Of a stretch of DNA of 20,159 bases, positions 256 through 16,719 are shown in pieces. Location: IMG/VR virus record IMGVR_UViG_3300009420_000126, positions 1 through 20,159 of that record. One strand, written 5' to 3'. The notes under the pieces were generated by a model. The model was not told where the DNA came from. It saw only the letters and a program-made list of their open reading frames with translations, and did not search any database. Every line of letters begins with the position of its first letter. Position 1 is the first letter of the stretch. This DNA comes from a virus. Position numbers and translations under genes: made by a program.

Positions 256-422
256 ATAAAAAAGAAGAAGTTGTTTTAGAACAAAAACCAATAGTTAACA
301 AAAATATGGTAGAACTTTTAGGCAAAGTTAAAGATTTTAATAATGATTACATATCATTTTTAAAAATTCAACTAGATACTGCTAAAGCACAACAATTAAA
401 AGAAATGGAAAATAATGGCTGA
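252..422 (+). CDS. Small hypothetical protein, 56 aa, between spike and large structural gene
   Basis: This short frame starts at ATG 252, overlapping the spike stop by four bases (ATGA), and ends at TGA 420-422, eight bases inside the next gene. An AAGG at 238-241 could serve as ribosome binding site, about 10 bases upstream. The product begins MNKKEEVVLEQKP and is charged, Lys/Glu/Gln-rich and probably helical (LLGKVKDFNNDYISFLKIQL, ending LKEMENNG). It has no signal peptide or membrane segment. Both overlaps are typical of translationally coupled genes, and without it 160 bases would be left uncovered in an otherwise gap-free cluster, which is why I call it real. The family is not recognised; a small helical accessory or assembly protein of the hub is only a guess from position. 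Confidence 0.65.
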   Translation: MNKKEEVVLEQKPIVNKNMVELLGKVKDFNNDYISFLKIQLDTAKAQQLKEMENNG

Positions 423-3400
423 AGCTGTCCCAACAAAAGAAAGTACAGATCCTGGGACTTCTCAAACAGGAGATGATGTTTATTTAAAACAAATGGAGGG
501 TTCTCCGTTCGGTGGATCTGCAGGTGATGCGATGAATGCATTTTTAGAAGGATTAAGTGCATTTGGTGCTGAATTTTCAAGAGTTTCAGACACGTTAATT
601 CAGTTTTTTCAAGCAACAAAATTATTTTTACAGGCTTTTAAAAATCCTCTTGTTGCGGCTTTAATTGAGACTATTGATGCTTTGATAGAAGCACTTGAAG
701 AAATGGATGCTTTAGGATTTGGTAGTGTTAGTGTTTGGCCCTGGAAAGATGGAACATATCCTCAACCATTGAACACGGATAAATTAGATGAAGCAGTACT
801 TGGTCTTGTTGCCGCCATGTCGGGACTTGATGCAACGGCAGTTGGTTATAGTGAACGTGGTACCTTTGTAAAAACAAAAAATGGAGAGTCTCTACTTACT
901 CCTGGTCAAGAATTGCTTACCATCGAGAGGGGACGTCCTGTTCTGACAAAAACCGCAGTTTATGATACGTTGATGGGTATTCGTAATTTTTTTCATCCAG
1001 AATTATGGAAAGGTTCTTCTGTTTTTTATACTGATACTGCCGCGGATGCCGCCAAACGCCAAGCAGGATGGCATCCTGGAATGGGTATAACTCAAGAGTC
1101 TCTTGGTCAATCATTGACTGGACAAATTGTTGAAGGAGCGAAAGATGCGCTTTTTACATCAATTGATGTTACACAGAAAAATCTATTAGTTAAAGAATTA
1201 ACCCCTGAAGATTGCGTAAATAAAATAATAGATTCTTTATCGGGGTCTAGTCCAGATGGTAATAAACCAACAGGTTCTGGTCCCTATAAAGCATTTATGA
1301 TTATGTTCACTCTTCCAACAATTAATGATGTAATTCAAATTGTACAATCATTTGCGGATTATTTTGGTTCTGTTATAGGCGATGAATTGTTTCCTGTCTT
1401 ACTCAATCCTTCGAATAAATTAGATGATACAAAAAAGACTATTTCGTTAGGAGAACCTCTTCATAATTCAGTACTTAAAGATACCAGGACCTGGTCAGCT
1501 ATTAATGGTTGGGAAGAGTCTGGGGAAGCAGAGTATCAGCAGAGTCAGGCTTTGGCGACATCAGAATGGTTTTATGAGCTTGGTGATTTTAAGCCAAGAA
1601 CAGGTCTTAAAGATGGAACATATAAAAATGGGGTACATGAAAGCGATAAGAAATTTAAAATACCCATGTTTAAACCAGGTCAAAAAATCGTTCAAGAGGG
1701 GGGAATATTAGGAGTTAGTAGTTTTTCCGCTGAAGTTATTGAACATCTTCCAATAGTTGTTCTAAATGGCATGGTTATACAAAATAGTGTTAAAGTAAAA
1801 AGTGTCAGAGGCGAACTTCAAAGAACAAATCATAAACCCCTTAATTCGGCCACATCACCAATTGTCCGAGCAATTTCAAAAGAATATGTTCCTAAAGAAG
1901 AATATGCAATTTTTAGAACAGATACATTAGAAAAACCAATTCCAAAATCAACTGGTACATTTTTTGGAACAATTAGAGAAGGCAGTACTACCATATCAGA
2001 AATCATACCCACGGGTACATGGGGGAATGAAATTAGAACTGAATGTGAATCGGCCGGTAGTTTTATAAAAGGACTTAACATCTTACTGGGAGGCGGCAAT
2101 AGTCAACTTGTCATAAACTCTTATATGAGGTTTATACGAGAACTTAAAAAAGGAGCGATAATTGATCATCAATATTTGCAACCATTTGATCTATCCGATA
2201 GAAATTTAAAAGGTTATGATGCAAGTTTGGGTGTAGATAAGAAATTTGAATTTAATTATGGTAAATTATTAGATGTGTTTCCGTCAATAGGTGTACAATG
2301 GCATGTTGCTAACATTAAAGTTGATGGGGTGCCTATAGAAAGCATGGACGACTTAACAAAAGAAAAACTTTTTACTTATCCCAACCCTAATGTCAATCCT
2401 CAAGCATCACCGAAACCTACTGGAATGAAGTCTCTTGAGATTGAATTGGGATTTTTAAATTTTGACGGAACATATACAACAGATTTGGGAAATTTCATTG
2501 ATGTTAAAAAAGCAATATCTCCACCAGACGGTGTAGTATATTCTTGGAAAACGAAAATACCTTCTGGAAAAGCTGGTGTTGATGGTCCTCCCAATCAACC
2601 GTTTCAATTGTTAGCATCTAGTAAAAATCTTTCACCTAATTGGAAATATATAAGAGTTTCGGATTTATTTCCAGCATATGGTGCAACCATAGACCAAGCA
2701 ATCGGTATGGTAAAAGGATTCAAAAAACAAGTTGAATCTATAGCTAAATCAATAGATGCATACATAGCATTTTTAGAAAGACAGATAGTAGCAATACAAA
2801 GATTGAATGATCAAATTCAACAATTGATCGCATTTTTCTCTAAGGGATTAAATGCGGCAGGTCTTTATTCGGCACAATTTAGTGGAGATGGAATTGGTGA
2901 TTTTAAAAAGAAATTGTCGAACATAAAAGCAATACAAACTGCAAAAAATAAAGTACATGAAATAAGTCTGGAAACAGTTGAATCAGAAACCGTAATACAA
3001 GATCCTTTTACTGGATTAGATAAAAAAGTAAAAAGAAAAGTTTTAAGACCAAGTATACAAGAACAAGAAATAGAGCCTGATGGCATTCCTAAGGCATTAA
3101 GTGAACTTGATAATTTAAAATATTCTGGTGCTATTGTGTTTTTTGCTCAAGGTCCTGACATATCAAAATTTGATAAATTCATGGATAGCTTTGGTGCATT
3201 GGAAACTCTTGGAAAAGGATTTCTTGCAAATTTATTTGATAAAGATGATAGCATTGCTCAAAAAATAGTACCATATGTATATGAGATACAAGGACAAGAT
3301 AAAGACGGTAATTGGATAGAAATAGAGAGATTATCGAAATTAGATGATGATGGAACTATAAGAATTAAATTTACAAATGATGCTAATGAATTAAGTAAAG

Positions 3401-3843
3401 CTGATCGCAATGCAATTAATACCCAGATGGAGAGAACTGTAGAATTTTCACCAAAAATTCAAATGGGAAATCTTCTTTTTTCAGGAACACCTACAAAAAA
3501 TGATGCAATTGCATTGTATCAAGGAACTTTTGGTGCCAATGAGGGAATAACTCGTTCCAGCTTTTCTGCTGATACTACTTTTTATCAATTTTCACAACAG
3601 CCGAAAACTAGTTTTGAGGCAAGTTCTCCGGCTGATGAAAATGGTATATTTGAGAAAGAATTTTTTAATATAGATTTAAAAACTAAAGATCCAATGCCAA
3701 GAACAAGCACGACAAACCTCTATAAAGTTGTAGTTCAAACGAGTATTATAAGTCTTGAAGGACAATCAATAAAAGAAAGAAAAAATCTTAATATTGGATT
3801 TGATATAAACCCTGTAACTGTAGAATCTGGAGAATTGATATAA
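415..3843 (+). CDS. Large virion structural protein of unknown function, 1142 aa
   Basis: The start ATG 415 lies eight bases inside the preceding small gene, with only a weak GGAA at 407-410 upstream; the stop TAA shares its last base with the next ATG (TAATG). Residues ~35-100 are mainly hydrophobic or amphipathic helices (QFFQATKLFLQAFKN, ALIETIDALIEALEEMDALG), then VSVWPWKDG. Residues ~755-815 form a long helical, probably coiled-coil stretch (IDAYIAFLERQIVAIQRL) leading to GLYSAQFSGDGIGDF. Residues ~900-935 contain YSGAIVFFAQGPDISKF. The C-terminal ~200 residues look beta-rich (VPYVYEIQGQDKDGNWIEIE) and Ig/fibronectin-like. There is no signal peptide. Place between the spike and wedge genes argues for a baseplate or tail component. 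Some marine T4-like phages carry large unnamed or VrlC-annotated proteins near here; I cannot test that match. No catalytic motif is seen. Confidence 0.8.
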   Translation: MAEAVPTKESTDPGTSQTGDDVYLKQMEGSPFGGSAGDAMNAFLEGLSAFGAEFSRVSDTLIQFFQATKLFLQAFKNPLVAALIETIDALIEALEEMDALGFGSVSVWPWKDGTYPQPLNTDKLDEAVLGLVAAMSGLDATAVGYSERGTFVKTKNGESLLTPGQELLTIERGRPVLTKTAVYDTLMGIRNFFHPELWKGSSVFYTDTAADAAKRQAGWHPGMGITQESLGQSLTGQIVEGAKDALFTSIDVTQKNLLVKELTPEDCVNKIIDSLSGSSPDGNKPTGSGPYKAFMIMFTLPTINDVIQIVQSFADYFGSVIGDELFPVLLNPSNKLDDTKKTISLGEPLHNSVLKDTRTWSAINGWEESGEAEYQQSQALATSEWFYELGDFKPRTGLKDGTYKNGVHESDKKFKIPMFKPGQKIVQEGGILGVSSFSAEVIEHLPIVVLNGMVIQNSVKVKSVRGELQRTNHKPLNSATSPIVRAISKEYVPKEEYAIFRTDTLEKPIPKSTGTFFGTIREGSTTISEIIPTGTWGNEIRTECESAGSFIKGLNILLGGGNSQLVINSYMRFIRELKKGAIIDHQYLQPFDLSDRNLKGYDASLGVDKKFEFNYGKLLDVFPSIGVQWHVANIKVDGVPIESMDDLTKEKLFTYPNPNVNPQASPKPTGMKSLEIELGFLNFDGTYTTDLGNFIDVKKAISPPDGVVYSWKTKIPSGKAGVDGPPNQPFQLLASSKNLSPNWKYIRVSDLFPAYGATIDQAIGMVKGFKKQVESIAKSIDAYIAFLERQIVAIQRLNDQIQQLIAFFSKGLNAAGLYSAQFSGDGIGDFKKKLSNIKAIQTAKNKVHEISLETVESETVIQDPFTGLDKKVKRKVLRPSIQEQEIEPDGIPKALSELDNLKYSGAIVFFAQGPDISKFDKFMDSFGALETLGKGFLANLFDKDDSIAQKIVPYVYEIQGQDKDGNWIEIERLSKLDDDGTIRIKFTNDANELSKADRNAINTQMERTVEFSPKIQMGNLLFSGTPTKNDAIALYQGTFGANEGITRSSFSADTTFYQFSQQPKTSFEASSPADENGIFEKEFFNIDLKTKDPMPRTSTTNLYKVVVQTSIISLEGQSIKERKNLNIGFDINPVTVESGELI
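3829..3833 (+). promoter_or_regulatory. Shine-Dalgarno site for the Ig-repeat gene
   Basis: GGAGA lies nine bases before ATG 3843, inside the end of the preceding gene. It supports the one-base-overlap start at TAATG and independent initiation rather than pure reinitiation. Confidence 0.6.
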
Positions 3844-6800
3844 TGGCTAATAATGCAATTTCTAGAACAGGAACCTTTACATCAAGTGGAAGTGCTGGCG
3901 CTTCGGGAACATATTATTATAATCACGGTGAAGATTGGCAAAATGCAGGATCATCTGGTCATATGGGAACAGATCATTATTCTAATGATGATTTAAAAAA
4001 TGGTTCTATTTTTACTGATATTGATAGTAAAATTTCTATAAAATTTTCACAAGATGTTGATAAAAATTCTGTCAAGACCTTCAATAAAGATACTAAATTG
4101 CCTGTTGCTCTTCAAAATCAAAAAGGAACTATTGGTCTAACACATGTTGTTTATGGCCACGAATCAACAGCATCCATTACTGATGGTAATAATCTACAAG
4201 CCTTAAAATTGACTTCTTTACCAGACTCCGCGTGGAATTCCATCACAATTGATAAATTTGTAGAAATGTCTTCTATTGCAGAAACATCTGATGATCAAAC
4301 GTATGCCCTTACACCAAAAGCAAATCTTTCGTCTAACACAACTTATTTTTTAAAAATAGATACTGATAATTTACTTGATGTATCTGGAACAAAAATTAGT
4401 TATAGTACAGAGAGGGGTTTTGTTACTGATAATACAAAAAGTTTTGTGACTACAAATGATTATTATGAGGGATTTTCGATGCAAATTGAACCTGCCTCGT
4501 TACTTTTATCCGAAAAAAGCCCTGATCTCGATACAGCATCCCATCCAAAGTTTGAGAGTGAAGATACTATGAGTTTATATCGGACAGGTGAAACAACAGC
4601 TTCTGGAGCAACTGCTTTAAAAATTAGATCTATAGATGGAACGAAATTAACATATCAATTAGAGCCTGATTCGTATAGGATGAATGTCTCTTATACTGCT
4701 ACAAATCCTATAGTTGTTTCTAGTACAACTCATGATTTAATTGATGATGATAAAATAGAAGTTTATGATGTAGTAAGCGGAAATGTAGTTAATACAGGAG
4801 AATATACAATAACAAAAATTACAGCAGATACATTTTCTATTCCTGTGGATGGCACAGGAAGTAGTGCTGGTGGATTGAATTATTATAGAAATGTGAATAA
4901 AGACGATTTATTGGTATGGTCTGAAACAGATGGGTTGTCCACTCCGACCACCTATACTATAAGAAAAAAAGTATTATCTGTTCCTCATAAGAAAACCAAT
5001 AATTTGTCTAGTGGTTCATTGAATAATACTTTTTCTACAATTAAAGATAGTACAACAGTTGCTTCAACCGCAAAAGGAAAACTAATAAAATCCAGTGGTT
5101 CAACTATATCATATGTTCCTGTTGATACGAATGGTAAAATCTCAACTGATGTTTTTGTTAATAATTCTATAGTTGATGTTTCAACTTCTACTAATGATAT
5201 TAGATTTCACATAAAGGCGAATACCTCTCCTGATCATAATGTACATCCCTTTCATTCTTCTGCACCAAAAGTAAATTCTACTTTTCCTGGAGACGGTGAA
5301 TCGGTTGCAAGAAAATTGAAAGTTACACAAATTACAAGAAAAGGAACTATTGCTCTTGTATCTACAAATCATTATCACAACTTATCTACTGGAAGTCTCA
5401 TAAAAATTGTTGATTCTACTCAAGCGATTTATAATAAGACAATATCAGTATTACTTGTTCCAACATCAAATACTTTTCAGTATGATTTAGGTTCAGATGT
5501 TCCTGAAACTACTCAAAGTCCTGCTCCTGGAAATCCTAAACTTCAAATTAGCTATGATAGTGGTGTCACTTATGCAGAAAGATATAATGCTATATTCGTA
5601 AATTTTAGTCAATCTATGAATACAAGCAGTATTACGGTTGCAAACAATACTCATTTAATTTCAGCAAATGGATCAACAGGGGATTTTGTAACTTCTACTT
5701 CATTTGCATATCAACAAGATTCTGCTTCAAGTACAATACAATTATCAGATTCTGGTTTTGTGTATCTTGTAAATTGTGTTTCTGTGACAGCAAGTGCGGG
5801 TAATTCTGTATTTGCAGTTGTTCCTGAAATTCTTGAACCGAGACATCGATACAAAATAAAAGCAAAAACAGATATCCAAGATTTGGGACAAACATCCAGT
5901 ATCTATGAATATACAACAACTATAGGAATTACTACTGGAGTATCTGTTATAGATCCAACAACTGGTCAAGAAACAGTTTTCTCCAAAGATGAAGAACCGC
6001 CAGAAATTAGAAAAATATCTTTTACAAGTGCAGGAACTGATGGTGTTGCAGGAATGGTTTTAGAAAGTAATACTGTATCTGAAATAACTTCTCCCGATGA
6101 TTATCAAGCAGTTGATATTGATCTTGATGCTGAATCTATATTAGTTCAATTTTCTGAAGCCATGAATATAGATACAATATCAACTGCAACAACAAGTACA
6201 GTACCTACAGGCACAGTACAACTGTCTTCTGATAATTACGATACTGTTGTTCAAATGTCTACGATTCCAGTTGTAACATCAACTGATAATGAGAATGATA
6301 CTTTTAAGTTTACCCCCATAGCAAACTTATCTGCAAATAGCATTTATACATTAAAGGTTGCTAAAGGTGTATCTGATGCTTCACCAGAACGAAATCAAAT
6401 GTTAACAGCAAATGTTAGTTCTGCAAAAGTTCTTACAGTAAATGCAATTCCTGCAGATACAGAAAATTATTATGTTCCAGGGGAAACTATATCAGGAGTT
6501 AGACAGTTACAGATTATTGCGAATACAGGAACACCTGCTATAGGATTAACTGCTGGAGATACCTTTTTAGGACTAACATCAAAAGGTAAAGGGAGGGTTT
6601 TAGATTTTACTGAAGATTCAGGAGCAATACAAACCCTTAGATATACAGAATTGCCTGGTGAAGATGGGGCCATTATACCCCTTACTCCTGGAGAAGTGTG
6701 TAAAGTATTTGCTGGTCCCGATTTTACAATTGATAGGTATGGAATTACGACTCCTCCAGAAGGAAACGTTATTTCTTTTACTACAGGAACCAGAAAACTA

Positions 6801-8066
6801 GTTTATAGAAAGACCACTCCAGATGATGAATTTGTATCTGCAAATTCTAGTGCAGAAAGAATTGTAGGAAGAACATCGAATGGGTATACTTTTGCAAGTA
6901 GTTCAGGTAGTGAAGGAATAGTAGGACCAGGACTAAAAACTGCAACAACTGGAATTGTAGCAAATGTGTTTTTTAGTAAGAATTCGGTTTTAGTGTCTCC
7001 TATAGATGGAAATCAAACAGGTATTGATGAGAATTCAAATCTTACTGTTACATTTAATCAAACAATGAATGTTGAAAGCATTGATTTTAATAGCGCAGAT
7101 TCTCTGGTTAGAACATCTTATAATGTTTTACTTTCTTATGATAGTAATTTTCAAAATACAATACCATTGAGTCCAACTTTTTCTAGTTCAAATAATGATA
7201 CTGTATTTGAATTTCAACCAGCAATATTGTCAAATACAAATTTACAGTTAACACAGAGTAAAAATCTATATGCTAGGGTAACAGATACAGCAAAAAATAA
7301 AGGTGATATGAATCTGGCCAGTAATTTTGCTCCTTCGAATTATGCTAATACTGTTACAGATGTTGATTTTAAAGCAATAAATGCTTCTGTTTTTACACCA
7401 GACGGACAAGAAATAGAATTGGGAACAGGAACTTCTGTATCTATGCCAAATCAATCTTCAAGAATAGCAAGAGGAACTCCTGTTATTATACATTTTAATG
7501 AAGTTCCTAGTTTGTCAACTTTTGCTTTGGATGCAGAAATAGAGTTAGGGACTGTTTCAGATTTTTCTTCAGGAACAATTGCTCTCGGTGACGGCTCTCT
7601 TACAACATGTGGTACATATGGAACACAAATAAAGATTCAGCTTGGAGTGACCCGCTATGGTCTAACTACATTTTCTGGATCTGGATTAAATGATGCAACG
7701 TATAGTGGAGTTTATGAGGGAAATAGTGCAGGTGATATTTATCGAGTGCAAATATTCTCGACACCAGGCGGTGCAGATGTATTTATGTGGCAAGCCAAAG
7801 CTGTTCCTGACACCAACTGGGTTGAGCAAATCTCCATAACCGGAGGAGTACAATACTTAGCGGATGGTATATCGATTAAATTTGATTCAACCACTGGACA
7901 TACTATTGGGGATTATTGGGACATAACGACAAATGACAATTCCACTAGATTAGACACATCTACTCAATATTATGTGAGAGTTGGAGCTACTGTAGGAGGA
8001 ACAAATGAAGGCGGAAAAGCATTGACGACAACTGTAACATATTTTAATTCATTTACAACTGCATAG
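3843..8066 (+). CDS. Virion protein with SbsA-type (Big_5) Ig-like repeats, 1407 aa
   Basis: The gene starts on the last base of the previous stop and ends at TAG 8064-8066. At least five segments carry the start of bacterial SbsA-type Ig domains, a hydrophobic strand followed by an F-S/N-x-x-M/V-D/N pattern: ISIKFSQDVDKNSV (~64-77), IFVNFSQSMNTSSI (~580), ILVQFSEAMNIDTI (~765), LTVTFNQTMNVESI (~1066) and a weaker VIIHFNEVPSLSTF (~1213). Several are paired downstream with LS-x-N-T/S-x-Y-x-L-K-V/I strands (NLSSNTTYFLKI, NLSANSIYTLKV), the closing part of the same fold. Two further modules (~280-350 and ~492-566) resemble an H-x-L-x-x-G-x-x-I beta unit found in other genes here. Composition is Ser/Thr/Asn-rich with no signal peptide or transmembrane segment. 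Ig-like repeats in phage virions usually act as spacers or weak surface-binding domains; whether this is baseplate periphery, fibre or whisker is not visible. Confidence 0.8.
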   Translation: MANNAISRTGTFTSSGSAGASGTYYYNHGEDWQNAGSSGHMGTDHYSNDDLKNGSIFTDIDSKISIKFSQDVDKNSVKTFNKDTKLPVALQNQKGTIGLTHVVYGHESTASITDGNNLQALKLTSLPDSAWNSITIDKFVEMSSIAETSDDQTYALTPKANLSSNTTYFLKIDTDNLLDVSGTKISYSTERGFVTDNTKSFVTTNDYYEGFSMQIEPASLLLSEKSPDLDTASHPKFESEDTMSLYRTGETTASGATALKIRSIDGTKLTYQLEPDSYRMNVSYTATNPIVVSSTTHDLIDDDKIEVYDVVSGNVVNTGEYTITKITADTFSIPVDGTGSSAGGLNYYRNVNKDDLLVWSETDGLSTPTTYTIRKKVLSVPHKKTNNLSSGSLNNTFSTIKDSTTVASTAKGKLIKSSGSTISYVPVDTNGKISTDVFVNNSIVDVSTSTNDIRFHIKANTSPDHNVHPFHSSAPKVNSTFPGDGESVARKLKVTQITRKGTIALVSTNHYHNLSTGSLIKIVDSTQAIYNKTISVLLVPTSNTFQYDLGSDVPETTQSPAPGNPKLQISYDSGVTYAERYNAIFVNFSQSMNTSSITVANNTHLISANGSTGDFVTSTSFAYQQDSASSTIQLSDSGFVYLVNCVSVTASAGNSVFAVVPEILEPRHRYKIKAKTDIQDLGQTSSIYEYTTTIGITTGVSVIDPTTGQETVFSKDEEPPEIRKISFTSAGTDGVAGMVLESNTVSEITSPDDYQAVDIDLDAESILVQFSEAMNIDTISTATTSTVPTGTVQLSSDNYDTVVQMSTIPVVTSTDNENDTFKFTPIANLSANSIYTLKVAKGVSDASPERNQMLTANVSSAKVLTVNAIPADTENYYVPGETISGVRQLQIIANTGTPAIGLTAGDTFLGLTSKGKGRVLDFTEDSGAIQTLRYTELPGEDGAIIPLTPGEVCKVFAGPDFTIDRYGITTPPEGNVISFTTGTRKLVYRKTTPDDEFVSANSSAERIVGRTSNGYTFASSSGSEGIVGPGLKTATTGIVANVFFSKNSVLVSPIDGNQTGIDENSNLTVTFNQTMNVESIDFNSADSLVRTSYNVLLSYDSNFQNTIPLSPTFSSSNNDTVFEFQPAILSNTNLQLTQSKNLYARVTDTAKNKGDMNLASNFAPSNYANTVTDVDFKAINASVFTPDGQEIELGTGTSVSMPNQSSRIARGTPVIIHFNEVPSLSTFALDAEIELGTVSDFSSGTIALGDGSLTTCGTYGTQIKIQLGVTRYGLTTFSGSGLNDATYSGVYEGNSAGDIYRVQIFSTPGGADVFMWQAKAVPDTNWVEQISITGGVQYLADGISIKFDSTTGHTIGDYWDITTNDNSTRLDTSTQYYVRVGATVGGTNEGGKALTTTVTYFNSFTTA

Positions 8067-8074: not shown

Positions 8075-8311
8075 ATGCCACTAGAAATTGAAACATTAAA
8101 AACTAATATAAAGGCCGCATTTAAACTTGGATCTGCGGCTGGATCAGAAGAGAAAGTTGCTGAATTAATAGCCACTGCAATACACACTTATGTAATTGCC
8201 GCAGATGTTACTACTCCAGTAACTACTGTTGTTACAGGAACTTTTGCTGGTACTGGATCAGGTCCTATTGCTGGTTCTGGATCGGCAATATGTAAGGGAA
8301 GACTTTCATAG
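8075..8311 (+). CDS. Small virion-associated protein of unknown function, 78 aa
   Basis: The start follows the previous stop by eight bases, behind a strong AGGAGA. The N-terminal half is predicted helical (ETLKTNIKAAFKLGSAAG, EEKVAELIATAIHTYVIAAD); the second half is a Thr/Val and Gly/Ser-rich tail (VTTPVTTVVTGTFAGTGSG) ending KGRLS. This layout, a helix containing an A-I-x-x-Y pattern followed by a VT/G-rich tail, recalls small unnamed proteins encoded beside baseplate genes in other contractile-tailed phages. I cannot assign a family name. It sits directly before gp25, so a minor baseplate role is plausible. No membrane segment or enzyme motif is seen. Confidence 0.75.
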   Translation: MPLEIETLKTNIKAAFKLGSAAGSEEKVAELIATAIHTYVIAADVTTPVTTVVTGTFAGTGSGPIAGSGSAICKGRLS

Positions 8312-8321
8312 GGAAATTAGA

Positions 8322-8333
8322 CTAAATAAACAT
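8322..8333 (+). promoter_or_regulatory. Possible T4-type late promoter element directly before gp25
   Basis: The 22-base gap 8312-8333 contains CTAAATAA at 8322-8329, one base off the late-promoter consensus TATAAATA used by T4-like phages. It ends four bases before ATG 8334. The stretch TAAATAAACATATGGCTA recurs with one change before the gp8 gene. No Shine-Dalgarno sequence lies at a normal distance; the nearest purine run, GGGAAA at 8311-8316, is 17 bases away. If it works as a late promoter the transcript would begin at or next to the start codon and be leaderless; otherwise it may be an A-rich translation enhancer. Confidence 0.45.
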
Positions 8334-8819
8334 ATGGCTACAAATTCAACACAAGAAGATTACACTTTTCCAGATTCTGAATTTTATCAAAGTTTCTCGG
8401 AAAAAGATGCACAACGGCATGCAATATCTCTAATGCATCAGCCCAAAGATTTAAGTATTCAATTTTTGAGCAATCCTAATACAGGAGATATTGCCTTAAA
8501 AACGGGAAGCAATGCAGTAAAAAGTGCTTTAAGGCAATTAATTTTAACTAAAAAGTTTGAAAGACCGTTTCAACCTGGTGTTGGTTCAAATATATCGGAC
8601 TTATTATTTGAACCAAATGACATAATTACTGAACAATTAATTGAAGATGAGATTAGAACTGTAGTTGCAAATTTTGAACCAAGAGCGAATATATTAAATG
8701 TAGTCGTTGATAGTGAAAGAAACGGTGCGGGTTATCGAATTAAGATAATTTTTTCAGTAGTAAATGAGACTGAGCCGGTTACATTTACTACATTTTTAGA
8801 AACAACAAGAGGTACTTAA
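8334..8819 (+). CDS. 25: Baseplate wedge protein gp25 (GPW/gp25 family), 161 aa
   Basis: gp25 is a small wedge subunit that joins the sheath-contacting part of the T4 baseplate. The conserved core is clear: DLSIQFLSNPNTGDI (~39-53), then GSNAVKSALRQLI, then ERPFQPGVGSNISDLLFE (~76-93), matching the family pattern of R-P-F-x-P-x-x-G-x-x-(I/L)-x-D-x-L-F-E, followed by VVANFEPRANILNV (~110-123) and strand IKIIFSVV. T4 gp25 is 132 residues; this one has an extra ~30 hydrophilic residues at the N-terminus. I chose ATG 8334 because it removes overlap with the small gene upstream and follows the TAAATA element; an in-frame ATG at 8433 would give a T4-sized 128-residue protein. A farther in-frame ATG at 8229 lies within the upstream gene and is unlikely. 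The stop abuts gp6. Confidence 0.93.
   Translation: MATNSTQEDYTFPDSEFYQSFSEKDAQRHAISLMHQPKDLSIQFLSNPNTGDIALKTGSNAVKSALRQLILTKKFERPFQPGVGSNISDLLFEPNDIITEQLIEDEIRTVVANFEPRANILNVVVDSERNGAGYRIKIIFSVVNETEPVTFTTFLETTRGT
8807..8812 (+). promoter_or_regulatory. Shine-Dalgarno site for gp6
   Basis: AAGAGG lies seven bases before ATG 8820, inside the last codons of gp25. It supports the start immediately after the gp25 stop (TAAATGG). Confidence 0.6.
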
Positions 8820-10685
8820 ATGGCGGAAGCTAGTAAATTAAGAGTTTCAGAATTAGATTTTGATCAAATAAAAAATAATTTTAAAAGTTTTCTTAAAGAA
8901 CAAGATGTCTTTAGAGATTATAATTTAGAAGGTTCTACCATTTCTCATTTATTAGATATTTTAGCATATAATACTCATTATAATGCTTTTTATTTGAATA
9001 TGGTCGCAAATGAAATGTTTATTGATTCTGCCACTACTAGAAATGCCATGATATCTTTGTCTAAATTGTTAGGATATGTTCCAAAATCAAGAACAGGTGC
9101 AAAAGCAAATGTAAATATATCAATAACTCCTAATGATGCTCCTGCAAATATTACTATAGCAAAAAATACAAAATTTAGTTCTGCTATAGACGGTATTAAT
9201 TATACTTTTGTTGCGGACCAATCATATTCGACAACTGCAAATTCTGATAATGCAACTGTTACTGTTCAAAATGTTTCATTGATTGAAGGAGATCCCTTAA
9301 CTTTTAGCTATACTGCCAATACGAAAGATTCTTCACAAAAATTTACGGTTCCTAATAGAGGAGTTGATCATTCAACAATTACAGTTTCTATTAAAGAAAA
9401 TTCTTCTATTACAGAAATATCGCCTTATACTCAGGCAACTGATTTGCTTGAAGTTAGTTCAACATCAAATGTGTTTTTTATAGAAGAAGGTACAGATTTT
9501 TTAACAGAAATAAAATTTGGAGATGGAGTTTTAGGAAGAAAATTAAAAAATGGTAACATTGTTATTATTGATTATAATATTTGTTCTGGTGTTTTAGGAA
9601 ATGGTGCAAATAATTTTGCAGTTGCAACAACTGCTGGAGGATATTCAACAGTTACACTTGTAACTAATGATAAAGCAGAAGGAGGTTCAGATGAAGAATC
9701 TATTAATTCTATAAGATTTAATGCTCCTAGACATTATAATACACAAAATCGAGCAGTAACAACAGATGATTATAAAAGAATAGTATTAAGAGATTATCCT
9801 TTAGCAGAATCAATAGTTGTATATGGAGGAGAAGAGGCAGATCCTCCAGAATATGGAAAAGTTTTTATAGGTATAAAACCTAAATCGGGACTTTATTTAA
9901 CAGACTCAGTAAAAACAAATATTAAAGACAATATTCTTAAAAAATATAATGTTGCATCTATAACACCTGAATTTGTTGATATCGATTATGTTTATGTTTT
10001 ATTGTCATCAACTGTTAATTTTGATTCACGAAAAACGGTAAAAACTTCACAAGCATTAAGAAGCAGTATTATAAGTTCTATTAATACATATGTTGCCGAA
10101 GACCTTTACAAATTTGAACAAACATTTAGATTGTCAAAGTTACAAACAAAAATTGATAATACAGATTCTTCTATTTTAGGTGATGATAGTGCTATTAGAT
10201 TGAAAAAAACAATTGAACCAGTATTAAATACGAAATTATCATATATTTTAAAATTCAATAATGCGATTAGTCATCCCCATTCGGGTCATGCCGCTACCTT
10301 GTCTTCTACTGTATTTTCTATATTGGATGAACAAAATACTTTAAGAGAAAATTGTAAAATAAAAGATCATAATGGTTTGTTAAAAATTTATAGAACAGAT
10401 AATGAAGGAGTCGAATTTTCCGTTAGAGATAAAATTGGCACTATTGATTATATAACCGGAAGAGTAGTATTAAATTCTTTTGATCCTTCTTCATATGCCG
10501 GTACTGAGATTAGCATAACAATTATACCTGTTTTAGGTGATGTTTTATCTTTGAGAGAACAATTAATAACAATTGAAGAAAAAGATATTAATTTGAAAAT
10601 GAATGATACTTCTATAGTTAATAAACAAACTCAAATCACAACAACAGAAACTACAACATCTCAAACAACGGCAGTAAATTATTAA
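8820..10685 (+). CDS. 6: Baseplate wedge protein gp6, 621 aa
   Basis: gp6 forms the continuous inner ring that links the wedges of the T4 baseplate; T4 gp6 is 660 residues, close to this length. The N-terminus is diagnostic: LRVSELDFDQIKNNFKSFLK (~7-26), then GSTISHLLDILAYNTHYNAF and AFYLNMVANEMFIDSATTR, then LSKLLGYVPKSRTGA. Mid-protein, NAPRHYNTQNRAVTTDDYK (~301-319) is the baseplate J-like signature where a P-x-x-x-x-x-Q-x-R-A-V-T-x-x-D-Y block is conserved, followed by YPLAESIVVYGGEE and YGKVFIGIKPKSG. The C-terminal part (DKIGTIDYITGRVVLNSF) fits the rest of the family, ending in a Thr-rich tail. It starts at the base after the gp25 stop, so the two wedge genes are almost certainly cotranscribed and probably coupled. 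Confidence 0.95.
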   Translation: MAEASKLRVSELDFDQIKNNFKSFLKEQDVFRDYNLEGSTISHLLDILAYNTHYNAFYLNMVANEMFIDSATTRNAMISLSKLLGYVPKSRTGAKANVNISITPNDAPANITIAKNTKFSSAIDGINYTFVADQSYSTTANSDNATVTVQNVSLIEGDPLTFSYTANTKDSSQKFTVPNRGVDHSTITVSIKENSSITEISPYTQATDLLEVSSTSNVFFIEEGTDFLTEIKFGDGVLGRKLKNGNIVIIDYNICSGVLGNGANNFAVATTAGGYSTVTLVTNDKAEGGSDEESINSIRFNAPRHYNTQNRAVTTDDYKRIVLRDYPLAESIVVYGGEEADPPEYGKVFIGIKPKSGLYLTDSVKTNIKDNILKKYNVASITPEFVDIDYVYVLLSSTVNFDSRKTVKTSQALRSSIISSINTYVAEDLYKFEQTFRLSKLQTKIDNTDSSILGDDSAIRLKKTIEPVLNTKLSYILKFNNAISHPHSGHAATLSSTVFSILDEQNTLRENCKIKDHNGLLKIYRTDNEGVEFSVRDKIGTIDYITGRVVLNSFDPSSYAGTEISITIIPVLGDVLSLREQLITIEEKDINLKMNDTSIVNKQTQITTTETTTSQTTAVNY

Positions 10686-10686
10686 T

Positions 10687-13600
10687 ATGTCAGAATACGA
10701 TTTCTTAAAAGACGAAAATAATATAAAATTAGTAGGTAAAATATCAAATTTAATTGATAGTCAATTACCTGATTTTGTTAAAGATGAAGGAACAAATTTT
10801 TCTGAATTTTTAAAATTTTATTATAAGTGGATGGAATCACATGAATTAACTATTTCAACTGTGGTTCAAGATGAATTTCATTTTATTTTAGAAAGTGAAC
10901 AGGGGAATTTTGTTTTAGAAACAACTGATGATTTATTAGTTGAGGGGGGGAGAACCGATTTAAGTGCTTATGACTTAAACGAAACAATAACGGGTTTAAG
11001 TTCGGGTGCGACTGGAACGGTTGATAGAAATACAAATACAGCATCAAGTAAAATTTATGTAACTGGAGTAACAAAAACAGATTTTGAAGTAGGCGAAATA
11101 ATAAAAGGCACAAATAATCGTACACTTGGTACTGTAGTTAATTTTCAAAAAAATCCCCTTTTTGCATCAAGAACATTATTAAAATCAAGGGATATCGATA
11201 GTACTACATCATCTATGCTGGATCATTTTACTAAAGAATTTTTAGTAAATATTCCAATGACTTTAAGTGCAGATAAGTCGCTTTTAATAAAACATATATC
11301 AGATATTTACAGAGCAAAAGGAACAAGTTCTTCATATGATTTTTTATTTAAATCATTGTATGATATACAAAATCTTATTTTTTATACTCCAAAAATAGAT
11401 TTACTTAAACTTTCTTCGGGGAATTGGCAACAAGATCAATCTATCAGAGTTATTACTTCAGATTCTGTAGCATCATTTGAAAGCCATTCTATTAAAGGGA
11501 TGCAATCAGGTGCAACTGGAATTGTAAATCGTATTGAAAAATTTGCGGCTGGAGTTTTTAATGTAACAGAACTATTTTTAACAAATATTATTGGAACATT
11601 TATTGTAGGTGAATCCGTTTCTTCAAATGATGTTGATGGGGTATTTGGTAATGGTATTTCACAGGGATTGTTATCCGATGTTGTTATTTCTTCAGCAGGT
11701 TCTAACTATAAAATAGATGATAAACTTACGTTTACTGGTGGAGGCGGTGTTGAAGCAAAAGCAAAAGTAACAAGTGTTGGTCAAGGCACATTAACTGATT
11801 TTACTGTATTTGATGGAGGGGACGGATATGTTGAAAATAAATCGTTAGATGTAAATAATTTTGCTACATTTGGGACTGGGTTTACTGGAAAAATTAAAGA
11901 TGTAATTGATTCTTTTACGTTTTCGAAAAATGAAGATATAATAGGAAATTATAGTGCAACTGTATTCAACGACTTAGCATATGAATTGAGTGGAGATGTG
12001 ACAGCAAATAGTGAGGACAGATTAATTGATACATTAGGATTTTCTAAACTAGATGCAGGATCTATTGGTTCTATACAAACAACTGGATCTGGCTCTGGTT
12101 ATGAGGCAATTCCTCAAATCTCAGTTGAAGAGATAACAACTGGAGATTTTGTTGAATCATCTATTCAAATTTTGAACTTAAATGCAGACCCCGATGGACT
12201 TGCTACAACAAATGCGATTACAGGCTTTTTTGATGCAGGAGAAAAGATTACTTCAAATAATGGAAATAAAATAGGAACATTTTTTGGTGATGTGTTCACA
12301 TCATACGAAAGTGAGATTAAAAATCCTACTAGAATAAGAGTAAAGACTATAAAATTTTTAGATGAAAATGTAACTCAAAAAATTCCAATTGCACAAAGAA
12401 ATGATCTGCTTGTAAATAATTCTACTTATTTGGCAGTCTCAAATCCATCAGTATATCATTTACAATTTGTTACTGGTGGTTCTGCTTCTGTTAATACGAT
12501 AAAATATAGACGAGGAATTGATGCAAGAGAACTTTTTAATAGTTCAAACAATACTTCAGCATGTGATTGGTATCCCACTTCTACTGGCGTAACTGTGACT
12601 GGTGGTTATCAAACATTAAGTTTTGGTATTACATCACTTACTAGAACCAGCACAACTGCAACTGCAACCACATATGGAAAACACGGATTAGAAGATGGGC
12701 AAATAGTTGCTATAACAGGAGCAAGTCCTGCTGGTTACAATGGAACTGCAACAATTACGGTAGCAAGTACAACTTCTTTTTCATATACCGTAGGGGGTTC
12801 CCTTACAACTCCTGCTACAGGAACTATATTATATAATGAAGATATTTCTGTAAAATTTACATTACCTTTTGGGCATACTACTGATGATGAATATGCTTTT
12901 TCCACTATTGATTTTGTTTCAAATGAAGTTATTACTGGCGCTAATTCGGCCGCTTTTGCAACTGTAAATACTGGTGTTGCTTTTTCTGCTGGAGGCGAGT
13001 TGGGAAATAATGCATCTATAGGGGTTTCTGCCGCAGATGTTGGTACTGGCTCTATTAAATCAATTGAAATTCAAGATCCAGGAGTTGGATTTACTTCTGC
13101 TCCTGTGATAACATTGCCTGGTCTCGGATCAGAAAACGCAAATTTAATAGCAAAAATTAGTGCAATGAGGGTTGAGACAGGACTATATCTTGATGAAAAC
13201 GGACAACCCAGTTCCAATAAAAAACTTATTGATAGTGATTTTTATCAAGATTATTCTTATTCTTTAATTGCAAATAAACAACTCAATGAATATCAAGAGG
13301 TTGTTTTTAACTTATTACACCCTACAGGAACAAAACTTTTTGGAGAATTTACGCCCGATGCTGTTGAATTGAATGTTGGATTTGATAGTAAATTACAATT
13401 TGAAGGAGGAGATTCTGCAATAAAAGAAGATGATGCTGATGATATATTGTTAGAAGATTTTTCCGATCCAAGACATAATGTAATATTTAATAACAATCAA
13501 AATCTATCTTCAGGATCCGTTTCCTTAACAGGTAATTCTAATATATTACAAGGAGTATCTACAAATTTTAGATTAACATATTCTGAAGGAGATCATGTAA

Positions 13601-14910
13601 TAATTGACAATGAACAATCTTTTGAAGTTTCTTATGGTGAATTGAGATTAGAAAATTATTTAGCAGGTACAATAGCATCATCCTCATCAAATGTTATTTC
13701 TATTATAGGTTTAGGTGATACTTATCCTAAGACTTCAACTGTACCAAATGATTTTAGTGCTAGTGCTAATTTTGTTGCAAATACTGTAGTTACACAAATG
13801 AATGCTACGACAAACGAAAAAGTAACTGGTGTTGTTCTTAGACATGAATTGGATGATTCAAATAATAATATATTAATTTTGCATTCATGTAATGGTCAGT
13901 TTGATGTTTCAAGTAATGCAAATTCTATAATCGGAAACACCTCAGTAATTAATATAAACACATATAATATGATTTTAGAGGGCGGCCATCAAACTATTTA
14001 CGATGAGCTTGGCAGGATAAGTGGCTCTGCAGATTTGACAGGAGATTTAGCATTAGAAGAAGGATATGGATTAGTTTTAGCGTTAGAAGATAGTATATAT
14101 CAAAATAATGAATCAGTTACAACTGCGGAATTTCAATATGTAAAATCAAATGTAATATTTGGAATTGCAACAGATTTTCAAGAAGATTTTAGAATAAATG
14201 ATAGAATTAAAACAATATCAACTTCACAAAATACAAAAATTATTGAAGTAATTAATTCGACATGTTTGATAGGAAATACTGCAATAAGTACGGATACTTC
14301 TTTTAATATGATTTTAGAGAATAGTTCAGAAGGGTATCCAGGAAGTTTTATTATGGAAGATAATGATAACTTTATTCAGAATATGGTTGATCCCAGTTCA
14401 TCCAAGTTTGATAATGATGATATACAGTTTTATAATTTGCTTGAATCAACAGTAAGAGGAACAACTAATGTAAATGGTATACTGTCAGGAAATACTAATT
14501 TAGTGGGAACGAGTTCTTTTTTTGGTGAAGATTTATTAGTAAATGATGTTATTACATTATCTTCTGATCCGCTACTTAAAGCAAAAATTTTATCAATAAC
14601 TGATCAAACCTTAAACTTAAATATAGCAATAGGTAATGGATCAACTGGTCAAACTATAACTTCACATACATTAAGAAATTTTGATTTAGAAAGAAATGCA
14701 ACTACTATATCTTTATCAAATCCTTATGATGGTTCAAACAATTTCATGAACATATCAATCAGTTCAATAGCGACAGGATTGTTGCTTCTTGAAGATGGAA
14801 TAGGTACTGCTAATGCAGGATATCTTGGAAATACATCAACCGAAGGCAGTTTTAAATTTGAAACACTATCATCATTTGATAATCAAACACCTAAATATAT
14901 ACAAACATAA
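10687..14910 (+). CDS. 7: gp7-like baseplate wedge / large virion structural protein, 1407 aa
   Basis: The start lies one base after the gp6 stop; no good Shine-Dalgarno is seen. The N-terminal ~230 residues carry a pattern known from large marine T4-like baseplate proteins: DSQLPDFVKDEGTNFSEFLK (~24-43) and FYYKWME, RDIDSTTSSMLDHFTKEF (~168-185), then LIKHISDIYRAKGTSSSYDF (~200-219) and LFKSLYD, then FYTPKIDLLKLSSGNW. The rest is a mosaic of beta-rich modules: GLSSGATGTVDR-type units, SSAGSNYKIDDKLTFTGGGG-type units (~335), an H-G-L-x-x-G-Q-x-V unit (~647-718), three GTxF/GxxxxF...ND-x-I units in the last third, and scattered acidic ILLED-like elements. T4 gp7 is 1032 residues. The gene lies between gp6 and gp8, gp7's place in T4; orthology is inferred from order and the N-terminus. 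A G7 run lies at 10944-10950. Confidence 0.72.
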   Translation: MSEYDFLKDENNIKLVGKISNLIDSQLPDFVKDEGTNFSEFLKFYYKWMESHELTISTVVQDEFHFILESEQGNFVLETTDDLLVEGGRTDLSAYDLNETITGLSSGATGTVDRNTNTASSKIYVTGVTKTDFEVGEIIKGTNNRTLGTVVNFQKNPLFASRTLLKSRDIDSTTSSMLDHFTKEFLVNIPMTLSADKSLLIKHISDIYRAKGTSSSYDFLFKSLYDIQNLIFYTPKIDLLKLSSGNWQQDQSIRVITSDSVASFESHSIKGMQSGATGIVNRIEKFAAGVFNVTELFLTNIIGTFIVGESVSSNDVDGVFGNGISQGLLSDVVISSAGSNYKIDDKLTFTGGGGVEAKAKVTSVGQGTLTDFTVFDGGDGYVENKSLDVNNFATFGTGFTGKIKDVIDSFTFSKNEDIIGNYSATVFNDLAYELSGDVTANSEDRLIDTLGFSKLDAGSIGSIQTTGSGSGYEAIPQISVEEITTGDFVESSIQILNLNADPDGLATTNAITGFFDAGEKITSNNGNKIGTFFGDVFTSYESEIKNPTRIRVKTIKFLDENVTQKIPIAQRNDLLVNNSTYLAVSNPSVYHLQFVTGGSASVNTIKYRRGIDARELFNSSNNTSACDWYPTSTGVTVTGGYQTLSFGITSLTRTSTTATATTYGKHGLEDGQIVAITGASPAGYNGTATITVASTTSFSYTVGGSLTTPATGTILYNEDISVKFTLPFGHTTDDEYAFSTIDFVSNEVITGANSAAFATVNTGVAFSAGGELGNNASIGVSAADVGTGSIKSIEIQDPGVGFTSAPVITLPGLGSENANLIAKISAMRVETGLYLDENGQPSSNKKLIDSDFYQDYSYSLIANKQLNEYQEVVFNLLHPTGTKLFGEFTPDAVELNVGFDSKLQFEGGDSAIKEDDADDILLEDFSDPRHNVIFNNNQNLSSGSVSLTGNSNILQGVSTNFRLTYSEGDHVIIDNEQSFEVSYGELRLENYLAGTIASSSSNVISIIGLGDTYPKTSTVPNDFSASANFVANTVVTQMNATTNEKVTGVVLRHELDDSNNNILILHSCNGQFDVSSNANSIIGNTSVININTYNMILEGGHQTIYDELGRISGSADLTGDLALEEGYGLVLALEDSIYQNNESVTTAEFQYVKSNVIFGIATDFQEDFRINDRIKTISTSQNTKIIEVINSTCLIGNTAISTDTSFNMILENSSEGYPGSFIMEDNDNFIQNMVDPSSSKFDNDDIQFYNLLESTVRGTTNVNGILSGNTNLVGTSSFFGEDLLVNDVITLSSDPLLKAKILSITDQTLNLNIAIGNGSTGQTITSHTLRNFDLERNATTISLSNPYDGSNNFMNISISSIATGLLLLEDGIGTANAGYLGNTSTEGSFKFETLSSFDNQTPKYIQT
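10944..10950 (+). repeat. G7 homopolymer in gp7-like gene
   Basis: Seven consecutive G encode part of Glu-Gly-Gly-Arg near residue 87. A one-base gain or loss meets a stop within about ten codons, giving a ~95-residue fragment in place of the 1407-residue protein. Confidence 0.9.
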
Positions 14911-14924
14911 AAATTTTTTATTGG

Positions 14925-14933
14925 CATAAATAA
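14925..14933 (+). promoter_or_regulatory. Possible T4-type late promoter before gp8
   Basis: The 27-base gap 14911-14937 contains CATAAATAA at 14925-14933, matching the NATAAATA late-promoter motif of marine T4-like phages. It ends four bases before ATG 14938, in the widest intergenic gap of the window. No usable Shine-Dalgarno is present. The stretch TAAATAAAGATATGGCTA nearly repeats the one before gp25. Initiation at the usual distance would give an essentially leaderless gp8 message. Confidence 0.55.
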
Positions 14934-14937
14934 AGAT

Positions 14938-16719
14938 ATGGCTAAATTAGTAACGACAAAATTTAAAATACACAATGCAGAACAATTCATTGAATCTCTT
15001 GAAGAAACTTCAGCAACAAATTTATATTTGTTTATAGGAAAAGTTCAAGAATGGGATGATGAAGATGCTCCACCTGCTCCTAACGAAGCTGTAGCAAATA
15101 CTTTATATAGCTATTGGGATCAGATAATTGCCGCAAAAAAAGTTACTCCTGCAGATGTTAAACATGTTATTACAAGAACTAACTGGGAATCAAATACTGC
15201 ATATACTGCTTATATTCATACAAATCCAGATCAGTTGTCAAATAGTTTTTATGTTACTACAGAAGATTTAAATGTATATAAATGTTTACAAAATAATTTA
15301 TCAAATGGTACTTCAACTATTCAGCCAACTGGTTCAGGTACAGCAGTTATTGAGATTGCTGATGGATATAAGTGGAAGTACATGTATACGGTTACATCTC
15401 AAGATACTTTAAAATTTGTAACATCTGAATATATTCCTGTACAAAAAAGCGTAGATTCTAGGCAAATTGCAGTTGAAGATGCTACTATAGATGGACAAAT
15501 AGATATTATTAATAAAACTGCAAATGGAGATTTTAAAGCTGAATTTACTGCAGGTCCAAAAAATTCTGTTGGTGATGATCAAGATTTTATTACTGGTGAG
15601 ATTGTGTATGGTCAAACATCGAATCAATATGGAACTATTGTTAGTTTTGTTTCTGCGGCAAATAGTTTAACTTATGGCTCTAGTACAGGAAATACAAAAT
15701 TCGTCAGTGGTGAAGTTATTTTAGGACAAACATCTAATTCAAGAGCAACAATTTCTACAGAATCCGTATCAACATATAAATTTGATACTGGATTTTTTGC
15801 AAGTGTATCTAATTCTACTGTAATGCAATTATCATCGGGTGCAAATACTAGTGCAGATGATTTATATGTAAATTCAACTGTTTTTGTTGTAAATAATGCG
15901 GGGCAGGGCGAACAAACTACGATCACCCAATATGATGCATTGCTTCAGAGAATAACTGTTTCTCCTGCTTTTACGGTTACACCGAATACGGTTTCTGGTT
16001 ATGAAGTAACTCCATCAATTACTATAAATGGAGATGGATCTGGTTTTAAGGGAAGAGCAAGAGGAAATGCTACCCATGGAGTAACAGAAATAGTTGTATC
16101 AGCACAAGGATCAAACTTCACGGTAGCTGAATCGTCCATTATTGCTAACACAACTCACGGAACAGGGGCAACTTCTACAGTTATTATTGGACCAGTTGGA
16201 GGACACGGAAAGAATGCTATTGAGGAATTGGGAGGAAATAGGGTTTTGGTTGATACTCGTATTTCTGGAAATGAATCGGGAAAATTTACAACATCTAATG
16301 ACTTTAGACAAGTGGGTTTATTGAGAGATCCCCTACAATCTGCAAATAATCTTGCATTTTTTACAGATTCGTTAACCGATCAATCTACAACTTTAAAGGT
16401 GGGATCTGTTGCAGGATCTTTTCAACCAGATGAAAAAGTTTATACAGGAACATCTTTAGAAAATAGTACTGCTAATGGTGTTGTTGTTGATTTTCTAAAT
16501 AATAATACATTAAGAATAAATGAAGTAAAAGGTAGTTTTGTGGATAGTACTGTTGTGACTGGTGCAAATACAAGCTCGACCGGAACAATCTCTGCAAATG
16601 GTATCAGTCAACCAGGAATGAAACCTTATAGTGGAGATATACTTTATATTGAAAATAGAGCCAAAATTACTAGACTACAGAATCAAGTAGAAGATTTTAA
16701 GATTGTATTGGAGTTTTAA
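14938..16719 (+). CDS. 8: Baseplate wedge protein gp8-like, 593 aa, with inserted beta modules
   Basis: In T4, gp8 is a 334-residue wedge subunit acting as a dimer on gp7. Here the N-terminus reads VTTKFKIHNAEQFIESLEE, then LYLFIGKVQEW, and ~70-105 has ADVKHVITRTNWESNTAYTA, followed by NSFYVTTEDLNVYKCL. The block DGYKWKYMYTVTSQDTLKF (~142-160) and SEYIPV is a strong gp8 signature. A second conserved block, GPVGGHGKNAIEELGG (~419-434) with NDFRQVGLLRDPL after it, returns to the family pattern. Between and after these lie units not expected in T4 gp8: TGEIVYGQTSNQYGTIVSF, SGEVILGQTSNSRATIS and ITINGDGSGFKGRA-type repeats, which explain the extra ~260 residues. The gene follows a late-promoter-like element. 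The assignment is firm for the N-terminal third, good overall. Confidence 0.82.
   Translation: MAKLVTTKFKIHNAEQFIESLEETSATNLYLFIGKVQEWDDEDAPPAPNEAVANTLYSYWDQIIAAKKVTPADVKHVITRTNWESNTAYTAYIHTNPDQLSNSFYVTTEDLNVYKCLQNNLSNGTSTIQPTGSGTAVIEIADGYKWKYMYTVTSQDTLKFVTSEYIPVQKSVDSRQIAVEDATIDGQIDIINKTANGDFKAEFTAGPKNSVGDDQDFITGEIVYGQTSNQYGTIVSFVSAANSLTYGSSTGNTKFVSGEVILGQTSNSRATISTESVSTYKFDTGFFASVSNSTVMQLSSGANTSADDLYVNSTVFVVNNAGQGEQTTITQYDALLQRITVSPAFTVTPNTVSGYEVTPSITINGDGSGFKGRARGNATHGVTEIVVSAQGSNFTVAESSIIANTTHGTGATSTVIIGPVGGHGKNAIEELGGNRVLVDTRISGNESGKFTTSNDFRQVGLLRDPLQSANNLAFFTDSLTDQSTTLKVGSVAGSFQPDEKVYTGTSLENSTANGVVVDFLNNNTLRINEVKGSFVDSTVVTGANTSSTGTISANGISQPGMKPYSGDILYIENRAKITRLQNQVEDFKIVLEF
16710..16713 (+). 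promoter_or_regulatory. Shine-Dalgarno site for the DUF4815-type gene
   Basis: GGAG lies nine bases before ATG 16723, within the last codons of the gp8-like gene. It decides the start at MPKLTQDFN, three bases after the previous stop. Confidence 0.5.

Follow-up and report, generated by a model that had tools for sequence, protein, structure and literature searches.

Two of the T4-type baseplate wedge genes carried by the window (the whole 20,159-base stretch of a virus record analyzed here), gp25 and gp8, are preceded by nearly the same sequence, TAAATAAA(C/G)ATATGGCTA, at positions 8323-8340 and 14927-14944, and the question raised by this locus is whether such an element at a start codon directs transcription, directs translation or reflects chance. 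The comparisons described below point to a late promoter that, in a group of marine T4-like phages, lies 5 bases before the ATG of a recurring set of genes, such that the predicted mRNA would begin at the AUG and would be translated without a Shine-Dalgarno (SD) sequence, a reading that we consider likely. The relevant features of the window are:

8321..8328, + strand: late-promoter octamer ACTAAATA before gp25 (-13 to -6 when counted from the A of the ATG as +1)
8329..8333, + strand: spacer AACAT, 5 bases from octamer to ATG of gp25
8334..8819, + strand: gp25 baseplate wedge gene (PF04965, E 2.1e-12; phrog_261, E 7e-41), predicted leaderless, without SD
8820-10685: gp6, a wedge gene of the window
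10687-14910: another wedge protein
14925..14932, + strand: late-promoter octamer CATAAATA before gp8 (-13 to -6)
14933..14937, + strand: spacer AAGAT, 5 bases from octamer to ATG of gp8
14938..16719, + strand: gp8 baseplate wedge gene (phrog_438, E 1e-100; PF09215, E 1.4e-17), predicted leaderless, without SD

Both genes start with ATG. The gaps before gp25 and gp8, following the upstream stops, are 22 and 27 bases, respectively, and are indeed the only two long ones, as an earlier note on this DNA had claimed; the stretch 256-414 is occupied by a 56-codon ORF. This ORF (252-422) overlaps its neighbors at both ends, the first ORF at its stop (ATGA) and the following gene at its start. Two very large proteins are encoded ahead of gp25, at 3843-8066 and 415-3843 of the window (1407 and 1142 amino acids); one contains a bacterial Ig-like domain (PF13205) and the other has no Pfam or PHROG match.

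The 18-base element is present at both genes in the form originally described: the gp25 copy, TAAATAAACATATGGCTA, and the gp8 copy, TAAATAAAGATATGGCTA, differ at 1 of the 18 bases, and their octamers have two mismatches (gp25) and one mismatch (gp8) to the T4 late consensus TATAAATA. The two sites are the sole matches to the 18-base pattern in the window when up to 3 mismatches are allowed (shuffled sequences yield 0.19 matches on average, and 3 of 100 reach two), a figure with some circularity in it, the pattern having been derived from the sites themselves; it was set aside as evidence, the real test being the comparison with relatives. Bare TAAATA is not special in the window (28 sites on both strands, 26 of them within genes), and TATAAATA with at most one mismatch is not above chance (67 sites observed vs 80 expected); given that neither count is in excess, the motif alone cannot locate these promoters. 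The distinguishing feature is the geometry, that is, octamer, 5 bases, ATG. A reading of the two sites as stop-start junctions was also rejected; the upstream stops, at 8311 and 14910, are separated from the hexamer by 11 and 16 bases. The inclusion of codon-3 bases in the element does not hold: codons 2-3 differ in relatives (ATGCCTA, ATGACTA, ATGGGTT), so that GGCTA falls outside it. The 18-base identity is that of a putative promoter, its spacer, the ATG and a common Ala codon, and the true unit is the octamer with 5 bases and ATG.

To quantify the geometry, we denote by d the number of bases from the end of TAAATA to the ATG of a called gene. In the deduplicated IMG/VR loci (L003-L195), the ATG is found at d=3, 4, 5, 6 and 7 in 3, 10, 76, 2 and 6 cases, respectively; five permuted A/T-rich hexamers average 1.6 cases at d=5 and show no peak. 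The start codons at d=5 are nearly restricted to ATG (76 ATG, 0 GTG and 1 TTG). By resemblance, the 88 cases at d=4-6 include 49 gp25, 24 gp8, 7 gp2-like, 4 gp4-like and 2 PAAR-like genes along with 2 singletons; because gp25 and gp8 make up so much of this set, the loci are not independent. Within gp25 and gp8, the state of the geometry changes only a few times, and pair tests that took the tree into account gave no significant association of the geometry with SD, with 3 usable pairs each (in the gp25 test, 71 of 73 rows were used after removal of L178 and L167 as wrong starts). A scan of the collection for TATAAATA-N5-ATGGCTACA detected at least 120 stretches, compared with 57 for an N6 and 19 for an N8 spacer; among the matches listed, T4-late families account for 65 of 84 distinct stretches with N5, 12 of 41 with N6 and 3 of 12 with N8. 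Scans with ATGGCT gave at least 120 rows at both d=5 and d=8, so the make-up alone was compared: T4-late families comprise 63 of 119 distinct matches listed at d=5 and 10 of 111 at d=8. Approximate counts of the leaderless geometry by family are 36/73 for gp25, 13/27 for gp2, 24/97 for gp8, 0/124 for gp6 and 0/14 for gp18, obtained with a procedure that is biased toward the leaderless class, an ATG at d=4-6 being preferred up to 60 bases from the expected start, and that missed gp48 of HTVC008M. Two small genes, each divergent from the tail sheath gene, start 4-5 bases after an octamer, namely an HNH endonuclease gene in contig G001 (locus L196, 14248-14670) and an uncharacterized gene for a 99 amino acid protein in Melnitz (121041, minus strand).

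Relatives of the window were collected by gp8, gp25 and gp6. TAAATA, exactly five bases and ATG are retained in 30 of 30 gp8 loci (at least 51% identity, start included); the full TATAAATA is present in many gp8 loci and in relatives such as L005 and L014; and the gp25 spacer is 5 bases long in all 14 of the closest gp25 loci (L082-L095). Alignments of the upstream regions, with near-copies left out, comprised 21 gp8 sequences (the window and 20 relatives) and 8 gp25 sequences (the window and 7 relatives). In the gp8 alignment, ATAAATA at -12 to -6 is identical in 21 of 21 sequences, the base at -1 is likewise the same in all 21, and that at -2 in 95% of them. The average frequency of the commonest base is 0.94 in the gp8 octamer vs 0.61 at -60 to -14 (21 sequences), and 1.00 at -13 to -6 of gp25 vs 0.67 at -60 to -14 (8 sequences). 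A conserved -35 element is absent from the gp8 and gp25 upstream regions, where a lone gp8 column, at -34, reaches 0.95. As in T4-type late promoters, TATAAATA or a close variant precedes virion genes. Comparison with related phages, which the earlier note had proposed as a check, came out in favor of the element: the core and the spacing are conserved, the flanks diverge, and the geometry clusters at the starts of genes.

Genomes of named phages and contigs were compared using mechanical gene calls and, for the Pelagibacter phage HTVC008M, additionally the annotated starts; plainly wrong starts in the gene-by-gene table (e.g. gp5 and OC gp4) were not used. HTVC008M has 11 genes at d=5 by the mechanical calls, and by annotation 12 of its 198 CDS are at d=5, with one at 4 and one at 6, where about 0.5 would be expected per distance. 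Seven of these 12 carry a virion annotation; the remaining five (an oxygenase, CsgF, a cyclase, a hypothetical and a regulator) do not, so that for them 'late' is an assumption. Mosig has 6 genes at d=5, each of the contigs of the window's clade (G001-G006) 2 to 4, OC one, and Melnitz, which infects OM43, three, one being gp2 and another a cyclase whose annotation resembles that of the d=5 cyclase of HTVC008M; 2 of 5 pattern sites in Melnitz open no annotated gene, and one such ATG opens 8 codons only. Four d=5 genes of G007, none of them promoter-like, were not counted as support. The arrangement is absent from T4 (no called genes at d=4-6, 30 of 43 between 12 and 29), Syn9 (none at d=3-19, 18 of 30 between 20 and 28) and S-CAM1 (none at d=4-17 by the mechanical calls). 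In other named phages, raw matches to the pattern are few and their numbers mostly resemble the control (6 vs 6 in P-SSM2, 2 vs 2 in KVP40), with 4 vs 0 in RB49. In the comparison by mechanical gene calls, two of the control hexamers, ATAAAT and AAATAT, share bases with the motif itself, and high ATAAAT counts were disregarded for that reason. There are exceptions: Mosig gp25 is at d=8, and gp25 of G006 has no TAAATA. The gp8 promoter of HTVC008M leaves a leader (d=18, with SD), unlike that of gp25 in the same phage, and Mosig gp8 is leadered as well. In Vibrio phage K367 g2 (L709, 301-364), the homology of gp25 begins 63 bases before the annotated start, near a GTG that follows the upstream stop, such that the annotated start looks too late; TAAATA was not seen there.

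HTVC008M gp2 (18916, minus strand) and gp4 (18943, plus strand) diverge from a gap of 26 bases between the two ATGs (L281, 18914-18945); this gap consists of two abutting octamers, each with its own 5-base spacer (5 + 8 + 8 + 5). Because the pair is divergent, termination-reinitiation is unavailable to it. Three more divergent pairs (L325, L330 and L394) all come from loci that were fetched by the d=5 pattern.

The T4 late octamer is described as occupying -13 to -6 (PMC1524935), so that d=5 would place +1 at the A of the ATG. The base composition downstream of the octamer, in promoters with a leader and an SD, is consistent with this position. A occupies the sixth position in 65% of the 57 IMG/VR promoters, 75% of 16 from HTVC008M and Mosig, and 67% of 21 from T4 (p=0.003, 0.02 and 0.05, respectively, against an assumed background of 45%); at the seventh position it reaches 65%, 69% and 48% in these sets, and only half of the 4 Syn9 cases have it at the sixth. 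Given the A-rich seventh base and Syn9, the A signal supports +1 at this position but cannot fix a single base. The octamer in HTVC008M and Mosig is followed by G in 62% and then by T in 69% of the leadered promoters, and by G in 64% and then by T in 79% of the leaderless ones; with the octamer and the GT in common, the predicted leaderless class looks like the same promoter shifted to the start codon. HTVC008M is annotated with a late sigma factor, a putative late promoter factor and a processivity factor, and relatives of gp55 were identified in Mosig, Syn9, G008, OC and T4, and not found in G001-G006, which are fragments, or in G007. The Mosig match to gp55 (20731-21246, minus strand) was reported with two internal stops.

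No SD-like word is present at normal spacing before gp25 (8334) or gp8 (14938), just as had been noted. Among eight starts examined in the window, such words were found at 3843, 8075, 8820 and 16723, and none at 415, 8334, 10687 or 14938; the statement that most other long genes have an SD thus stands as a fair description (4 of 6 other starts) and not as a strong contrast. Across the deduplicated loci, SD-like words accompany 6 of 88 starts at d=4-6 vs 96 of 165 at d=12-60, and in HTVC008M 2 of 14 in the near-start class vs 13 of 16 in the leadered class; this absence is partly forced because the octamer fills most of the SD zone, and it is common anyway (70 of 155 HTVC008M CDS without TAAATA). 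Among 56 distinct gp8 upstream regions, 22 are at d=5, with an SD in none, and the other 34 include 21 with TAAATA 15-74 bases upstream and 13 without it within 80 bases, with an SD in 28 of the 34; these counts are not independent events, and the lack of an SD is in part dictated by the position of the promoter. In the clade contigs, SD sequences are found at gp20, the tail-tube-like gene and most gp6, and gp25, gp8 and gp2 are mostly at d=4-5 without SD; gp18, detected in three of the six contigs, has its late promoter 39-43 bases upstream along with an SD. The same genes tend to fall into the leaderless class, although not invariably.

The geometry of the predicted promoter is established by sequence comparison, and from it we infer with considerable confidence that the mRNAs are leaderless. 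Under the proposed scenario, the gp25 and gp8 sites would be T4-type, gp55-dependent late promoters that direct initiation at the A of the AUG; once late transcription is on, the gp25 and gp8 mRNAs would lack a 5' leader and would be translated through direct recognition of the 5'-terminal AUG. The set that recurs at start-codon promoters in marine T4-like phages would include gp2, gp4, gp25, a tail-tube-like gene and, in the clade of the window, gp8, and ordinary late promoters with a leader and an SD would coexist in the same genomes. The suggestion of a T4-late-like core with +1 at about the AUG, made from the window alone, is thus supported by comparison across many genes and several phages, including the exact spacing and the predicted leaderless consequence.

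Other interpretations have to be weighed against this one. In one of them, the A/T-rich block spanning -13 to -6 would be a translation element within longer mRNAs, i.e. an SD substitute or an unstructured or S1-binding stretch, and no promoter at all; the genes lack an SD, the block occupies its position, and many of the genes lie 8-35 bases downstream of a gene on the same strand. The exactness of the spacing, the absence of a d=5 peak for the permuted A/T-rich hexamers, the identity of the octamer and GT extension with those of leadered SD promoters in HTVC008M and Mosig, and the divergence of gp2 and gp4 from only 26 bases all count against it; this alternative, which the earlier note had left open, is disfavored and appears to us quite improbable. 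A different possibility is that the promoters are real and initiate at least one base from the A of the AUG, giving a very short leader or a start within the codon, with most of the protein made from read-through mRNA by termination-reinitiation. The cases at d=4 (10) and d=6 (2), the 57 stretches of the N6 scan, the d=8 spacing of Mosig gp25 and HTVC008M gp13, the A-rich seventh base, and the distances of 22 and 27 bases that separate gp25 and gp8 from an upstream stop are all compatible with this reading; the excess of d=5 far above the neighboring distances, the near-restriction to ATG and the divergent gene pair, which is barred from reinitiation, are not, and we regard it as unlikely. That the two similar start regions arose by chance or shared descent and have no special function seems extremely unlikely: the loci are related and the state changes are few within gp25 and gp8, but 12 differently annotated HTVC008M genes share the same distance, the arrangement occurs in unlike gene families of unlike phages, and the core is fixed where the flanks diverge.

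The start-codon late promoter is a new arrangement of known promoter parts. In the T4 late promoter as described, a box of 8 bp lies roughly one turn of the helix ahead of the start site, and no -35 element is conserved (PMC2988020). The promoters analyzed here resemble those of T4, which depend on gp55 with gp33 and gp45, in the octamer, the preference for A at the +1 position, the association with virion genes and the lack of a -35 element, and differ from those of T4 and Syn9 in the distance to the ATG. The late motif NATAAATA has been reported for the cyanomyoviruses S-PM2 and Syn9 (PMC2984593), and a method to search for cyanophage late motifs has been published (PMC3037559); these phages share with ours the virus family (Kyanoviridae) and the motif, but Syn9 and S-CAM1 have none at a start codon. 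Late promoters of the T4-like Ma-LMM01 are reported to resemble host SigA sites instead (PMC5780444). According to a survey of pelagimyophages, prediction of late promoters was unsuccessful (PMC7029224); in the Melnitz paper, 15 late promoters were predicted, and the available portion of its text does not discuss their distance to the starts (PMC9004378); and a recent pelagiphage transcriptome paper mentions neither HTVC008M nor promoters (PMC12753301). Among the papers listed in searches of the open-licence literature, none describes leaderless late mRNAs for T4-like phages. Phage transcripts are often leaderless according to the AR9 paper (PMC5312081), and in the alphaproteobacterium Sinorhizobium meliloti 171 leaderless mRNAs, all starting with AUG, have been mapped (PMC3616915), which makes translation of such mRNAs in an alphaproteobacterial host plausible. 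The alphaproteobacterial transcripts share with those discussed here the AUG, the lack of an SD and the spacing that would make +1 the A of the AUG, but they are mapped, whereas ours are predicted and belong to phage genes with a phage-type promoter.

The mRNA of the lambda cI gene, an isolated regulator, is a single leaderless phage mRNA with a 5'-terminal AUG. The present case differs in that a recurring gene set is predicted to be leaderless across a lineage. Such a set might constitute one of two late mRNA classes produced from one promoter type, with gp2, gp4, gp25, the tail-tube-like gene and, in the clade of the window, gp8 leaderless, and the bulk proteins gp18, gp20 and gp23 translated via an SD; some of the bulk-protein genes with an SD have the promoter 25-43 bases upstream. 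The ratio between the two classes could then be tuned late in infection through the ribosome, perhaps by a phage-encoded bS21, an idea that we put forward tentatively and consider rather doubtful. Phage bS21 has been argued to select phage transcripts late in infection by Bacteroidetes phages (PMC9723584). Start-codon promoters and an S21 gene occur together in four genomes:

HTVC008M, 91237-91392: S21 gene
Mosig, 9983-10132, - strand: S21 gene
Melnitz, 35461-35619: S21 gene
G011, 110259-110417, - strand: S21 gene

S21 was not found in 12 named phages (T4, Syn9, P-SSM2, OC, S-CAM1, C48C1, BUCT-ZZ01, K367 g2, phiM12, DLP6, KVP40 and RB49), among which the gene-by-gene test of the geometry covered T4, Syn9, OC and S-CAM1, nor in the fragments of the window's clade (G001-G006). 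Against the link, G007 and G010 have a start-codon-promoter gene and no S21, and the phages that encode S21 may simply be related; the link is a lead only.

If the proposed reading is correct, virion proteins and other late proteins of marine phages of SAR11 and OM43 bacteria would be made from leaderless mRNAs across an entire lineage. The arrangement would economize on intergenic DNA and might also determine, with no SD involved, how much of the minor virion parts is made. It would also provide a model of the late promoter for phages in which earlier prediction was reported as unsuccessful (PMC7029224), and the rule of octamer, five bases and ATG may help to place gene starts.
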